A stretch of DNA of 64,000 nt from Candidatus Sulfotelmatobacter sp. (GTDB lineage: Bacteria > Acidobacteriota > Terriglobia > Terriglobales > Acidobacteriaceae), in assembly GCA_036500765.1 (NCBI GenBank), contig DASYBM010000004.1, positions 124,001-188,000 of the forward strand, given 5' to 3'. The notes below the pieces were generated by a model. The model saw only the letters and a program-made list of their open reading frames with translations. It searched no databases and was not told the DNA's origin. Positions 4,431 through 61,373 of this stretch are shown here, piece after piece (positions within the stretch are counted from its first letter, which is position 1; the number at the start of each line of letters is the position of its first letter). Made by a program: the position numbers and the translations under genes.

Positions 4431-5984
4431 TTGTCACTCGACGACAAAATTTACGAATTGCGCCGCGAAAAATTGAAACAGATTGAGGCGCTCGGCCAGG
4501 CCACGTACCGCAGCAAGTACGAATTCACTCATACGCTCGATCAGATCCTGGCCGACTACTCGGCGAAGTCCGGCGAGGAACTGGAAGCGTCGCGCGTCAA
4601 TGTGCGCGTTGCCGGACGCATCATGGCCATTCGACTCATGGGCAAGGCCGGATTCGCGCATCTCCAGCAGGGTGGCAAGCGCCTGCAAATTTATGTGAAA
4701 AAAGACGCGGTCGGCGAACAGGGATTCGAGCTTTATAAACTGCTCGACCTCGGCGATCATATCGGCGTCAGCGGATATCTGTTTCGCACGCGCACCGGCG
4801 AACTCAGCGTCCATGTCGAAGAGATCACATTCCTCAGCAAAGACCTGCTGCCGCTGCCGGAGAAATGGCATGGGCTGACCGACGTTGAGTTGCGCTACCG
4901 CCAGCGCTACGTCGATATGGTGATGAATCCCGAGGTGCGCGAAGTTTTTCTGAAGCGCACAAAGTTGGTGCAGTCGATGCGCCGCACGCTCGATGCCCAC
5001 GGATTCGTCGAAGTCGAAACCCCGATGATGCAGCCCATCGCCGGCGGCGCGGTCGCGCGCCCGTTCGTCACGCATCACAACACGCTCGACATGGATCTGT
5101 ATCTTCGCATCGCCCCCGAGCTTTACTTGAAGCGCCTGGTGGTAGGCGGACTCGATCGCGTCTACGAAATCAACCGCAACTTTCGCAATGAGGGGCTGGG
5201 ATGGCGCTGGAATCCAGAGTTCACCATGCTCGAGTTTTATCAGGCGTATACCGACTATCAGGGCGTAATGGATTTGACCCAGGAAATCATCACGCAAGCG
5301 GCGAAAGACGTGACCGGTGGGACAAAAACAAAATGGGGCGAGCAGGAGATTGATTGGTCGAACTGGAAACGTATGACCATGCGCGAGGCGATAATTCAAT
5401 ATTGGCCGCAGGCTGCCGGCGCGAAGCCGGAGATAAGCGACTTCGCCAGCAGCGAAGGCGTGAAAAAGCTCGTCGAACGCTTCAACTCCGCTCACGCACA
5501 CATGGCGTATGAAGCGAATGCTCCCGCAGGGAAGAACATCGCAGCGCTGTTCGAGGCAGCGGCGGAGGAACATTTAACGCAGCCGACGATCATTTACGAA
5601 TACCCCACGGCGATCTCTCCGCTCTCGAAGCAAAAGCCCGACGAACCTGACTGGACCGAGCGCTGGGAGATCTTCGCCGGCTCCATGGAGATCTCCAACG
5701 GCTTCAGCGAACTCAACGATCCCGAAGATCAGCGACGCAGATTCGAAGCGCAACTACAGGAACGCGCGCGCGGCGACGAGGAAGCCCACCAGATGGACGA
5801 AGACTACATCCGCGCTCTCGCCTATGGTATGCCGCCGGCCGGGGGCGTCGGCGTCGGTGTAGACCGGCTCTGCATGCTCCTCACCGACTCGCATACTATC
5901 CGCGACGTCATCTTGTTCCCACTACTGCGCCCGGAAAAAAGCTCAACCACAGAGGGCACGGAGAGCACGGAGGATCCGAAATAA
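4431..5984 (+). CDS. lysS: Lysyl-tRNA synthetase, class II, with a repeat-derived C-terminal tail
   Basis: 517 residues that charge tRNA-Lys in the cytoplasm. The N-terminal OB-fold (about 55-145) binds the anticodon. The class II catalytic core carries motif 1 (HGFVEVETPMMQPIAGGA), motif 2 (FRNEGLGWRWNPEF) and motif 3 (GGVGVGVDRLCML). The start is TTG with AAAGGA upstream, an uncommon choice for an essential gene. The enzyme should end soon after LFPLLRPE. The last 15 or so residues (SSTTEGTESTEDPK) are encoded by an ACCACAGAGGGCACGGAG-type dispersed repeat that runs into the coding frame. It stands alone, with the YeiH gene converging from the right. Confidence 0.97.
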   Translation: MSLDDKIYELRREKLKQIEALGQATYRSKYEFTHTLDQILADYSAKSGEELEASRVNVRVAGRIMAIRLMGKAGFAHLQQGGKRLQIYVKKDAVGEQGFELYKLLDLGDHIGVSGYLFRTRTGELSVHVEEITFLSKDLLPLPEKWHGLTDVELRYRQRYVDMVMNPEVREVFLKRTKLVQSMRRTLDAHGFVEVETPMMQPIAGGAVARPFVTHHNTLDMDLYLRIAPELYLKRLVVGGLDRVYEINRNFRNEGLGWRWNPEFTMLEFYQAYTDYQGVMDLTQEIITQAAKDVTGGTKTKWGEQEIDWSNWKRMTMREAIIQYWPQAAGAKPEISDFASSEGVKKLVERFNSAHAHMAYEANAPAGKNIAALFEAAAEEHLTQPTIIYEYPTAISPLSKQKPDEPDWTERWEIFAGSMEISNGFSELNDPEDQRRRFEAQLQERARGDEEAHQMDEDYIRALAYGMPPAGGVGVGVDRLCMLLTDSHTIRDVILFPLLRPEKSSTTEGTESTEDPK

Positions 5985-27091: not shown

Positions 27092-29167
27092 CTACTGCGG
27101 TGGCGGTGGCGTGGCCGACGGCAAGTCTTTGCGCGGGGCGACGTCGGGAACGTTGGGCATACGGGTGACTTGACCCTTGGCGGCGTCGTCGACGCTGACT
27201 CCCGCGCGGTCGAGCGTTGAACCGACCGCGCGATCGAGTTCGACACGCGATTTTTCATAAGCGGCCATGGCCGAGACGAGTGTCGATTCCGCCGTCGCCA
27301 GAGCGCTGCGGTTCTGTAAAACCAGCGTAGTGGTGGAGGTGCCGAACTGGAATTTTTTCTGTTCGGCGTCGAGCGATTGTTTCGCATAATCCACCGCGGC
27401 TTGGGCGGAAGCGACGCTGGCTCGATTCTGCTCCACTCCAAACTGGGCGTTGCGCACCTCGATGCTGATGCGGTTTTCGGTTTGTTGCAGCGCCATCTGG
27501 GCCTGCTGATACTCCAGCTCGGAGCGGATCTGCACGGCTTGCGCGGCTCGATTGCGGATCGGGATGTTCAGAGTCAAACCGACGCCTTTATCGGGATTGG
27601 AAGAGTTCACGAGCTGGTTCAAGGTGCTTCCGATAGGCGTGGTTGGAAACGTAAAATCCAGGCCGCTGGGGCCACCAGTCGGACTGGCGCAACCGAATTC
27701 AAGCTGTAATTGGGTCGGAGGGTTCGCGCATACGCCGAGAGGACTCTGATTACCGCCAATTCCGGCTCCGCCGTAATAGGCGAATAGGTTCAGCGTAGGT
27801 AGCAGCGCATTGCGCACCGCCCGGTTGCTGATCTCAGTCGTATTCAACTGGATGCGTTGCTCCACAACATCAGCTCGATGCCTTAGCGCTTCGTTCACCA
27901 AATCTTCAGTGGGCTGTATCTGTTCGTTCTGCGGCACTTCCATAGTGGATGTGGGGATCACTTCCGCGCTCGCCAGGTGAGGATCGCGCAGCGTGCGGCT
28001 GAGCGCATTCTTCATCAGCAACTGTTCTAACTGCAGGTTGGTTTGAGCAACCGTGAGCAACTGCTGGTCCTGCGCCACCGTGCTCTGAGCACGAACCGCT
28101 TCGATCGGGGCTAGGCTGCCGATCTCCACTTGTTTCTTGGTGTCGGAAAGCGTTCTTTCGGCAAATGCCAGGGACTCCTGCTGCACGCGCATGTTTTCGT
28201 AGGCGTATACCAGATCCCAGTACATGTCTTGAATCTGGTTCACTGTGGTGATGACTTGCAGGCGGAAGGCTACATCCGACAGCTCGCGGTTGTTCTTGGC
28301 GATTCGAATGAAGCGGGTATTGGCGGGGAAGCCAAGTCCCTGGAGAATCGGCTGAGTGAGCGTCAGTTTAAAATTAGAGCTTAGGGACGGGCTCACAGCG
28401 GAGAAGAAGCTATTCGTCGTTTGCCTGCTGTTATTGAAGCCTATCGATAGATCCGTGCCCCAATGGAAGCCCTGGCTGTAAGTAAAATTCACCGTGCCAG
28501 TATTCTGAACCAGGTGCGACCCCGGTTCGACCCCCTGGAAGATGCTAACTGCGGTCTGGGAGAGATGATCTTCCTGTAGCGTGCCGGTGACGATCGGGTC
28601 GAAACTAGTGATGAGGGAGCCCATACCCAGCGTGGAGCCGACCAGTCCGCCTGCGCCTGCGCCCGCTCCGCCTGCGCCGAGGCTGGTGCCGCCGGAGCCG
28701 GAACCGACCTGCGAGCCGAGGCCGCCGACGCCCGCGCCAGGAGTGTTCTGCACGATACCCGTATTGACCCCGAGCGTGGTGGCGCCGGCGCGCGCACGCA
28801 ACACGTCAGTATCGGCAATGTTCAAATTGTAGCGCGCGATGGCGATGTCGAGATTGTTCTCCAGCGCCAGCGCGACCGCGTCATTCAACGACAGGTAGAT
28901 CTTGCCGTCGTGCATGAGCTGGTCAATCCGCGCCGTGTTCGCCAAATTAGGCGCGGAAAGGTGGCGGGCCGTGTAGGGTCCGATGGGGTTGGGAAAATGA
29001 GACACCGGCCGGGCGTAGTTCAGTGCCGGCACCGGCTTTGTTTCAGGCGTGTTCTGCGGGGTCGGGGCCGTGGGCGGCTCCTGAGCCAGGGATGTAAGGG
29101 TCAGGGTAGCGAATAAGCAGGCAGCGGCGGCGAGCCGTACGGTCGAGGCTAAACGTGCAAATGGCAT
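27092..29167 (-). CDS. TolC-family outer-membrane protein (paralogue B)
   Basis: 691 residues with a signal peptide (1-28, ending LTSLAQ). The two-repeat OEP layout is the same as in the neighbouring paralogue. Shared near-identical segments include RIAKNNRE-SDVAFRLQVITTV, MYWDLV-AYEN and SNRAVRNALLPTL. It has the same glycine-rich insertion (GGLGSQVGSGSGGTSLGAGG). The ATG is preceded by GGAGAAGAG. The shared domain order, insertion and position point to an old tandem duplication. The 248-bp spacer downstream includes a hairpin, so the two may be independently expressed. Confidence 0.88.
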   Translation of the reverse strand: MPFARLASTVRLAAAACLFATLTLTSLAQEPPTAPTPQNTPETKPVPALNYARPVSHFPNPIGPYTARHLSAPNLANTARIDQLMHDGKIYLSLNDAVALALENNLDIAIARYNLNIADTDVLRARAGATTLGVNTGIVQNTPGAGVGGLGSQVGSGSGGTSLGAGGAGAGAGGLVGSTLGMGSLITSFDPIVTGTLQEDHLSQTAVSIFQGVEPGSHLVQNTGTVNFTYSQGFHWGTDLSIGFNNSRQTTNSFFSAVSPSLSSNFKLTLTQPILQGLGFPANTRFIRIAKNNRELSDVAFRLQVITTVNQIQDMYWDLVYAYENMRVQQESLAFAERTLSDTKKQVEIGSLAPIEAVRAQSTVAQDQQLLTVAQTNLQLEQLLMKNALSRTLRDPHLASAEVIPTSTMEVPQNEQIQPTEDLVNEALRHRADVVEQRIQLNTTEISNRAVRNALLPTLNLFAYYGGAGIGGNQSPLGVCANPPTQLQLEFGCASPTGGPSGLDFTFPTTPIGSTLNQLVNSSNPDKGVGLTLNIPIRNRAAQAVQIRSELEYQQAQMALQQTENRISIEVRNAQFGVEQNRASVASAQAAVDYAKQSLDAEQKKFQFGTSTTTLVLQNRSALATAESTLVSAMAAYEKSRVELDRAVGSTLDRAGVSVDDAAKGQVTRMPNVPDVAPRKDLPSATPPPPQ

Positions 29168-29575
29168 CTACTCTTCTCCGTTGATATAAGAACCGAACCG
29201 ATTAAGGTCCTACTGACTGAATTCTTGCGAATACACCCATCTTCAATGCACTTGCTTCAATGCACTTGGGTTTCGTCTGCGACGCCAAGACACCCCAAAA
29301 ATAACGTTCTGTCAGGCGTTGGTACGCTAAAGACTGGCGGAAGGTTCCAGAAAGCCGGAAGAAAGTTGACCCTTCACGTCCTGCTGCTGGTTCGAACTCG
29401 TCCGATAGTCTCGAAGCTCGGAAGTCGGCGGAAAGCATTCAGTATAGCTGACTGGAAGTGCGCTTGACCTGCACCGCATCGCTGCTCGATCCGATGCATT
29501 TCGAACTTGTATATTTCGAACTGGTACATTGCTTTGGAAGCCAGAATGCCATTGGATGAAGCGGCCGGGGCGGGG

Positions 29576-29665
29576 GACTCGAAAGATCGTGACTCGAAAG
29601 ATCGTAATGCGCAGGATCGTAGTTTGAAAGATCGTAGTTTGAAAGATCGTAGTTTGAAAGATCGA
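29576..29665. repeat. Six tandem 15-bp units just upstream of the truA core
   Basis: Units begin at 29576, 29591, 29606, 29621, 29636 and 29651. The last three read AGTTTGAAAGATCGT/A. The first two read GACTCGAAAGATCGT and the third is diverged. They are in frame with truA and would encode a pentapeptide ending KDR (one unit QDR). Two further 15-nt-spaced words (ATTTCGAACT) precede them near 29500. Confidence 0.8.
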
Positions 29666-29668
29666 GGG

Positions 29669-30475
29669 ATGCGCAATCTCAAATTGATTCTCTCCTACGA
29701 CGGAACCGAATTTTCGGGATGGCAAGTGCAGCCCGATGCTCCGACAGTGCAAGGCACACTTGCCTCAGCCATTGGACGCATTACCGGCGAAAAGGTATTG
29801 CCGCAGGGGTCAGGCCGGACCGACGCGGGAGTACATGCGTTGGCGCAGGTTGTGACATTTGTCACGGAGTCTTCCGTTCCTACAGAGAATTTTGTGAGGG
29901 CGCTGAACGATAATTTGCCGGCGTCGGTGCGCGTGCTGGAAGTCGCGGAGGCGGCGTCCGAGTTTCATGCGCGACATTCGGCGCGGGCGAAGACGTATCG
30001 GTATCGAATTTATCGGGAGGCGATCCGTCCGCCATTTTTGGCGCGGTACGTGTGGCATTATCCGTATCCTCTGGTCGAAGAGGCGATGGAGCGGGCGGCG
30101 GAATTGGTCGTGGGCGCGCACGATTTCACTTCGTTTGCCGCGGTGGATCCGGAGCGGGCTACCGATGACCTAAGGTGCGAGAAGGACGTGAACCACGAAG
30201 GAAATGAAGGCTCACGAAGGAACCCAGTGGGATCCAATGTGCGGAGGATTTTTTCTTCATCCTGGGAGCGTACGGGCGACGAGTTGGTCTATACGGTGAG
30301 AGGTTCGGGATTCTTACATCACATGGTGAGAAATCTGGTGGGGACGTTCATTCTCGTTGGCAAAGGAACGTTGCAGATCGAGGACCTGGGTCGCATTCTT
30401 GCAGCACGCAATCGTTCGGCGGCCGGTGCGACGGCGCCGGCGAGCGGATTGTATCTGGTTAGTGTTGAGTATTAA
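29669..30475 (+). CDS. truA: tRNA pseudouridine(38-40) synthase TruA
   Basis: 268 residues from MRNLKLILSYDGTEFSGW, the normal family start. It isomerises uridines 38-40 of the tRNA anticodon arm. The catalytic Asp lies in GSGRTDAGVHA; RTYRYRIYRE-like and GSGFLHHMVRNLVGTFI motifs follow. The ATG at 29669 has almost no space for its GAGG. An in-frame ATG at 29546 with GGAAG at good spacing would add about 41 residues made of KDR repeats, so a longer form is possible. A roughly 20-residue insertion (CEKDVNHEGNEGSRRNP) before the VRRIFSSSWER strand is encoded by an ACCACGAAGGA-type spacer repeat. Confidence 0.95.
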   Translation: MRNLKLILSYDGTEFSGWQVQPDAPTVQGTLASAIGRITGEKVLPQGSGRTDAGVHALAQVVTFVTESSVPTENFVRALNDNLPASVRVLEVAEAASEFHARHSARAKTYRYRIYREAIRPPFLARYVWHYPYPLVEEAMERAAELVVGAHDFTSFAAVDPERATDDLRCEKDVNHEGNEGSRRNPVGSNVRRIFSSSWERTGDELVYTVRGSGFLHHMVRNLVGTFILVGKGTLQIEDLGRILAARNRSAAGATAPASGLYLVSVEY

Positions 30476-46834: not shown

Positions 46835-46941
46835 CGAAGGTCTCACGGCTTGAGATTTGAGACTCGGAGGGTAGCCCCACTAGAAAAGGTAGGTTGTGAT
46901 GGACACCCGCGCAAGGTTACCAACGTGCGGCTAAAAGCTTT

Positions 46942-47018
46942 AACCACAGAGAGCCGGAACCACACAGTGTAAAACTTCTGGATCATTTACCCGGTGCGAC
47001 TCCGTGCCCTCTGTGGTT
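46942..47018. repeat. Inverted-arm element with AACCACAGAG ends
   Basis: AACCACAGAG (46942-46951) and CTCTGTGGTT (47009-47018) are perfect reverse complements around a 57-bp interior that also contains AACCACACAG. The right end lies 7 bp from the stop codon of the ALDH7-like gene. Sequence words match those in the lysS tail. Confidence 0.65.
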
Positions 47019-47025
47019 GAGGGAC

Positions 47026-61116: not shown

Positions 61117-61373
61117 ACTAGTCCGAGAGTCTAGTCCGAGAGTAAGAGATGTCATGAGGGATCGTACGAAAGTGGATTTCAGCAGCGCGGTCAATGGGAT
61201 CCTAACTCACTGCCGGCATCGTAAAGTTACGATTCACTGCATATGGGCTGCCGGACCGAGTTAAGATCCCTCGCACCGGCTTCGCCGGTGCTCAGGATGA
61301 CAAAAATCTGTTAACCGGTGACGGATGATCGACGATTGACGACCGACGACTGACGACCGACGACTGACGACTA
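61117..61373. repeat. Composite repeat spacer between mrdA and rodA
   Basis: Three layers are visible. CTAGTCCGAGAGT occurs twice in tandem (61118-61143). A dispersed TGTCAT-family element spans 61150-61302: its left end reads TGTCATGAGGGATC, and its right end contains the same sequence in inverse plus a CACCGGC-TTC-GCCGGTG hairpin. Words of GACGACTGACGACC fill 61319-61373. No gene is present. Confidence 0.7.

Follow-up and report, generated by a model that had tools for sequence, protein, structure and literature searches.

A dispersed CACnnAGG repeat in frame within a variable loop of an acidobacterial truA, and a leader array ahead of the gene

The truA locus and its relatives

The window, a stretch of 64,000 nucleotides, comes from a 5.04-Mb Candidatus Sulfotelmatobacter genome made up of 17 contigs (the genus is described in PMC6018796) and carries a truA gene with repetitive DNA both ahead of its start and within its reading frame. 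The features at this locus are as follows:

29441..29452, forward strand: motif AGTATAGCTGAC, a possible promoter core, kept ahead of the gene in 58 of 104 relatives
29497..29530, forward strand: a further short 15-bp tandem repeat of 2.3 copies in the leader region, from the tandem-repeat scan
29546..29548, forward strand: upstream ATG proposed as the start by the initial annotation, with the weaker computed ribosome site
29576..29665, forward strand: six 15-bp units, a multiplied leader block (GACTCGAAAGATCGT and variants), recognized by TRF and congener comparison and most likely untranslated
29669..30475, forward strand: truA from its canonical start at 29669, assigned by TIGR00071 and the TruA fold
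30137..30301, forward strand: insert-bearing hypervariable stretch AAVDPER...YTVR, with 55 aa in this protein against 37 aa for 42 of 103 sequences
30189..30222, forward strand: part of a dispersed CACnnAGG repeat, translating as NHEGNEGSRR, recognized by profile and 31-mer matches

The truA product scores 179.3 bits against TIGR00071, passing the curated family cut-off of 142.85, and 125.1 bits against NF000622, under the cut-off of 308 for that model. Its top fold matches are the TruA structures 1dj0, 2nqp and 1vs3, and in the GRTDAGVHA region which includes the functional aspartate, R91, T92 and D93 are invariant across 51 sequences. The protein shares family, fold and catalytic region with TruA, the tRNA pseudouridine(38-40) synthase, and a structure model built from 51 aligned sequences is confident for most of the TruA core.

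TruA was detected in 185 of 200 genomes of the family and in 42 of 45 genomes of the genus, the host genome included. The 164 loci were reduced to 162 with a full frame by removal of two partial ones (L093, L175), and then to 104 unique sequences by removal of 58 identical ones; L159 was left out of the loop counts, which are accordingly given for 103 sequences.

A multiplied leader block ahead of the canonical start

Six 15-bp units lie in frame ahead of truA at 29576-29665, as the initial annotation had noticed, and they stand above chance by TRF score (5.6 copies at 29581-29664 with a score of 105; 2.0 copies at 29576-29605). The unit GACTCGAAAGATCG occurs once ahead of the truA start in many congeners, where a single GACTCGAAAGATCGC block sits 15 or 18 bases before the canonical start and contains its ribosome-binding site. 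Elsewhere in the host genome the array pattern finds only four places, each with three mismatches, which rules out a dispersed repeat; what had been taken for spacer-repeat DNA at this position is native leader sequence. By comparison of leader sequences, the array is shown to have arisen locally through multiplication of this native segment, and short tandem duplication would turn one GACTCGAAAGATCGC block into the six units, lengthening the truA leader.

Among 27 perfect short tandem duplications in 464 kb of the host genome, nine have period 15 (two of them being the truA leader array itself) and six have period 14, so a 15-bp unit is usual in this genome. Separately, heptamer-based GACGACT tandem repeats of period 7/14 lie at 61330-61372 of the window, and similar 14-bp arrays occur elsewhere in the genome at about C4:233084 and C4:404275. 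At least five leader units were found in two of the 104 leaders scanned, those of the window and of L066 (congener G202); the L066 array has 5.5 copies of 15 bp at -87 to -4, the window array lies at -88 to -4, and the truA frame across the L066 array contains both TAA and TGA. Motif AGTATANCTGAC, present upstream in 58 of the 104 loci, has a distance of 228 from the start in the window versus 120-123 in L004, L057, L060, L063, L069 and L071. If this motif is the promoter core, the array would lie within the transcribed leader; a sigma-70 consensus scan of 29150-29760 returned no match.

The leader of the window truA is most likely untranslated. The alternative is that TruA is translated from 29546, with a 41-residue arm of repeated KDR that has grown from an older N-terminal extension. 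The frame is indeed open from 29507/29546 through the stop at 30475, and the structure model gives helix in the 40 residues preceding the canonical start (block means 48, 65, 79 and 65); however, a 15-bp unit that is open remains open even without selection, 15 being a multiple of 3. An in-frame stop lies within 15 codons upstream of truA in 34 of 104 loci, including the similar array of L066, and the leader block is out of frame with truA in 20 of 66 loci. The upstream ATG had been credited with the better ribosome-binding site, but the computed pairing, with an assumed 16S tail, is the reverse of this: -3.6 kcal/mol at 29546 against -4.9 kcal/mol at 29669. Protein-level constraint is likewise not clear, pN/pS being 0.79 in 22 congener leaders (of 25 found, three longer ones having been dropped and the window's own leader being absent from the set) versus 0.20 in the truA body, with 110 of 500 column shuffles equally low. 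Conserved coding sequence in the leader thus finds no support from pN/pS, although the block is in frame in 25 of the 31 congener leaders that have it. Taken with the in-frame stops of L066 and the weaker site at 29546, these values make a TruA with the proposed (x-x-KDR)n N-terminal arm unlikely.

That 25/31 figure remains a point in favour of translation from upstream, as are the loci in which codons -2 to 0 offer no ATG, GTG or TTG and an upstream or unusual start would be needed. There are eight such loci among the 104 (L013, L050, L052, L053, L054, L074, L081 and L136), of which L074 and L081 belong to the same genus as the window and L136 to another; in these three a start further upstream is likely to be used. 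The two observations together imply that the truA leader probably became coding in some lineages. For the window itself, gene callers may place the truA start too far upstream.

A dispersed repeat in the TruA loop

The internal segment reported by the initial annotation near codon 170 is an in-frame insert that contains AACCACGAAGGAAATGAAGGCTCACGAAGGA at 30189-30222, or about codons 174-185 of canonical TruA. It lies in a loop that, counted from AAVDP as far as GxGFL, measures 37 aa for 42 of 103 sequences, at least 45 aa for 32 of 103 and 55 aa for the window; E. coli TruA (1dj0) passes from residue 166 to residue 173 where the window protein passes from 164 to 195. The CACnnAGG repeat accounts for about 35 of the 54 extra loop bases. 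In L060, the nearest row, and in most rows of the genus the loop is short and the insert absent, so that the segment is not one conserved in relatives that are free of the repeat.

The repeat is dispersed within its own genome. The pattern ACCACNNAGGNNACNNAGG has 29 exact occurrences there (control 0) and is present in 41 of 45 genus genomes; with at most one mismatch it is found in 72 places, the truA copy among them, versus seven for the reversed pattern, and a first, narrower pattern had given four matches versus one in the control. The copies examined, for which 30 of the 72 places were fetched, show three units in a row, often preceded by TTA, and an inverted second arm lies no more than 130 bases away in 8 of 29 copies versus 0 of 29 control stretches. 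One of the 30 fetched places, L228, was excluded because its match is a chance one within a coding kinase-like motif. Eight ORFs that hold copies were scanned by Pfam and three have families. At 46939-47019 of the window, CACnnAGG arms stand in opposite orientation (TTAACCACAGAG ... CTCTGTGGTT), giving a palindromic form. The copies examined show no GTAG/CGTC tag next to their CACnnAGG core, which sets the window insert apart from GTAG/CGTC REPs, and an Rfam scan of the whole window gave no match.

The truA segment itself was compared with these copies by two means. Across 553 kb of the host genome the internal 31-mer has six matches with at most eight mismatches, five of them in loci preselected by a related pattern, and the best shares 27 of 31 bases; its reversal, its complement and each of 20 shuffles gave none. 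By itself the short word CACGAAGG shows no enrichment within the window (3 occurrences versus 2.73 expected). A profile of the 29 host-genome copies, truA excluded, matches the loop in 4 of 104 TruA genes, always on the same strand and in the same frame (E values 3.5e-6 in L147, 9.3e-5 in L157, 0.016 in L008 and a weak 0.04 in the window), and also gives a weak minus-strand match upstream of L044 (E 0.81). The TruA results were little changed when the ligase copy described below and L207 were removed from the profile. At the level of the DNA, the repeat is shown to be present and in frame within truA.

Other dispersed repeats occupy the same loop in congeners. The reading SAGVPPA or a variant of it occurs in L005, L037, L059, L061 and L062, which form one clade together with L064, a row with a plain loop. 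Allowing at most one mismatch, the genome of the window contains its DNA, AGCGCCGGCGTCCCGCCGGC, 35 times (control 0), and 29 of the 45 genus genomes contain it as well. The repeat has the GTAG tag, the palindrome and the linked Y1 transposase of a GTAG REP: it lies on both sides of one of six Y1_Tnp loci fetched from the window's genome, each of these two copies being preceded by GTAG. At L275 of that genome, GTAGCGCCGGCGTCCCGCCGGC at 1304 and 2072 on both sides of the Y1_Tnp match marks a putative REP-transposase unit. The loop of L056 has a CACnnAGG-like arm interrupted by CTTCGCTCGGGGCAGGCTC, a repeat that 34 of the 45 genomes contain (control 0), and that of L057 has GGTCAGAGACCCGGTCCCACA, present in 14 of 45 (control 0). 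Repeat DNA has thus entered this loop more than once among relatives.

As for the CACnnAGG repeat, plain loops are found in the row closest to the window, L060 (82/81), and in L036, the sister of L056 (97/96), and a third set of inserts belongs to another genus. On the tree, the eight insert rows (L002, L008, L147 and L157 as profile hits; L056, L136, L007 and L174 labelled by eye) need four changes and five stricter rows need five; an AU test did not reject the window and L056 as one clade (p 0.247). Two arrivals of the CACnnAGG repeat in the TruA loop are well supported, and three are likely.

The same repeat is found in a second enzyme. One CACnnAGG copy of the host genome falls within the gene for an ATP-dependent DNA ligase of 600 aa, in the part matched by Pfam DNA_ligase_A_M, and reads NHRGHRGSQG in the frame used in the TruA loop. 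This ligase loop is variable among the 20 ligases fetched, often reading HHRGHRGAQG or HHRDTESQRK. A profile without the ligase copy matches the loop in 10 of the 20 at E <1, four of them at <0.01, and the frame is always the same. L263 gives one further match, close to the beginning of its frame and outside the loop. In G204, the CTTCGCTC repeat is also inside the ligase gene (C30:5264-5282 within C30:4653-6446). The ligase loop of L262 (G204) reads HHRDALRLRSGQAPAQRN: here CTTCGCTC is embedded in CACnnAGG-like sequence, and the two are paired likewise in the L056 TruA loop. Within the window, a lysyl-tRNA synthetase gene at 4458-5984 has a CACnnAGG copy at 5946-5964 that gives a short predicted C-terminal tail, SSTTEGTESTEDPK; the TIGR00499 match of this protein stops at residue 494 of 508.

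Interpretation and comparison with known systems

We favour, with a probability of roughly 0.7, two unrelated events at this locus: multiplication of the leader, most likely untranslated, and capture of a CACnnAGG repeat in a permissive loop. Of the two independent repeat incursions proposed initially, the one inside truA stands as a dispersed repeat in frame, whereas the leader array is a product of local multiplication. An intergenic-type CACnnAGG repeat would have arrived in frame between FTSFAAVDPER and NVRRI, in a stretch that would tolerate inserts and so permit capture of REP/MITE-like DNA.

Spacer repeats had been thought to be undergoing domestication as protein, in which case the insert would be under selection and would change TruA activity or a partner. 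Diverged CACnnAGG inserts do persist across the other-genus clade of L007, L008, L136, L147, L157 and L174, and the ligase loop retains repeat-like sequence throughout the genus; against this, relatives have no insert, a shortened one or other repeats, and the loop, which often changes in length and content, is of low model confidence (pLDDT block means 60, 51 and 51 for residues 201-230, numbered from 29546). Domestication in this sense is quite improbable, and we infer that the insert is tolerated and has brought no new function. That the segment arose by ordinary drift, the loop being hypervariable, and is not repeat DNA is very improbable: loop length does vary family-wide (the trait of at least 45 aa needs 18 changes on a tree inferred from the DNA with the loop removed) and the window copy has only its weak profile match, but the 27 of 31 bases shared with another host-genome copy, the empty controls and the dispersed repeats in the loops of other TruA rows argue otherwise.

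A broader extension of loop capture, which we find doubtful, would make CACnnAGG a protein-compatible mobile sequence (NHRGHRGxQG), for which the TruA and ligase loops would be standing landing pads, with repeats replacing one another or nesting, and would have truA leader arrays join the protein once the canonical start is lost (compare L074 and L081). If that extension holds, the CACnnAGG repeat, read in this one frame, would repeatedly enter flexible loops of nucleic-acid enzymes, and dispersed repeats of several kinds would supply proteins with new sequence. Because many congeners and relatives with the short loop are available, the locus offers a traceable case of noncoding dispersed repeats becoming protein sequence in a soil bacterium. 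With several repeat families in one TruA loop and CACnnAGG present in the DNA ligase as well, the distinction between inserts that are tolerated and inserts later selected becomes testable.

Among the papers listed by the literature searches, none gives an account of the CACnnAGG element, which may bear another name; as far as these searches show, neither the host group nor the element has previously been described in such a role. The kind of event is already known, since both intragenic REPs and Rickettsia elements are in print. PMC3733652 describes REPs that lie within truB, within genes for DNA ligase and tRNA synthetase and, in S. maltophilia, within the one for pseudouridine synthase A. 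It also records that recB of two species carries different REPs at nearly one position, and that NH2-terminal repeats often go untranslated. Like the window insert, these REPs are short dispersed repeats in frame in housekeeping genes; the insert differs from them in consisting of a CACnnAGG repeat, with no GTAG/CGTC tag, in an acidobacterial host, and the SAGVPPA repeat of the five congener rows resembles them in its GTAG tag. Rickettsia palindromic elements, as reviewed in PMC10969869, are in-frame repeat DNA in many unrelated genes. Capture in the TruA loop would work as in both of these systems, but the Rickettsia elements of that account are about 150 bp long and encode a conserved peptide, whereas the window insert comprises about 34 bp of half-element.
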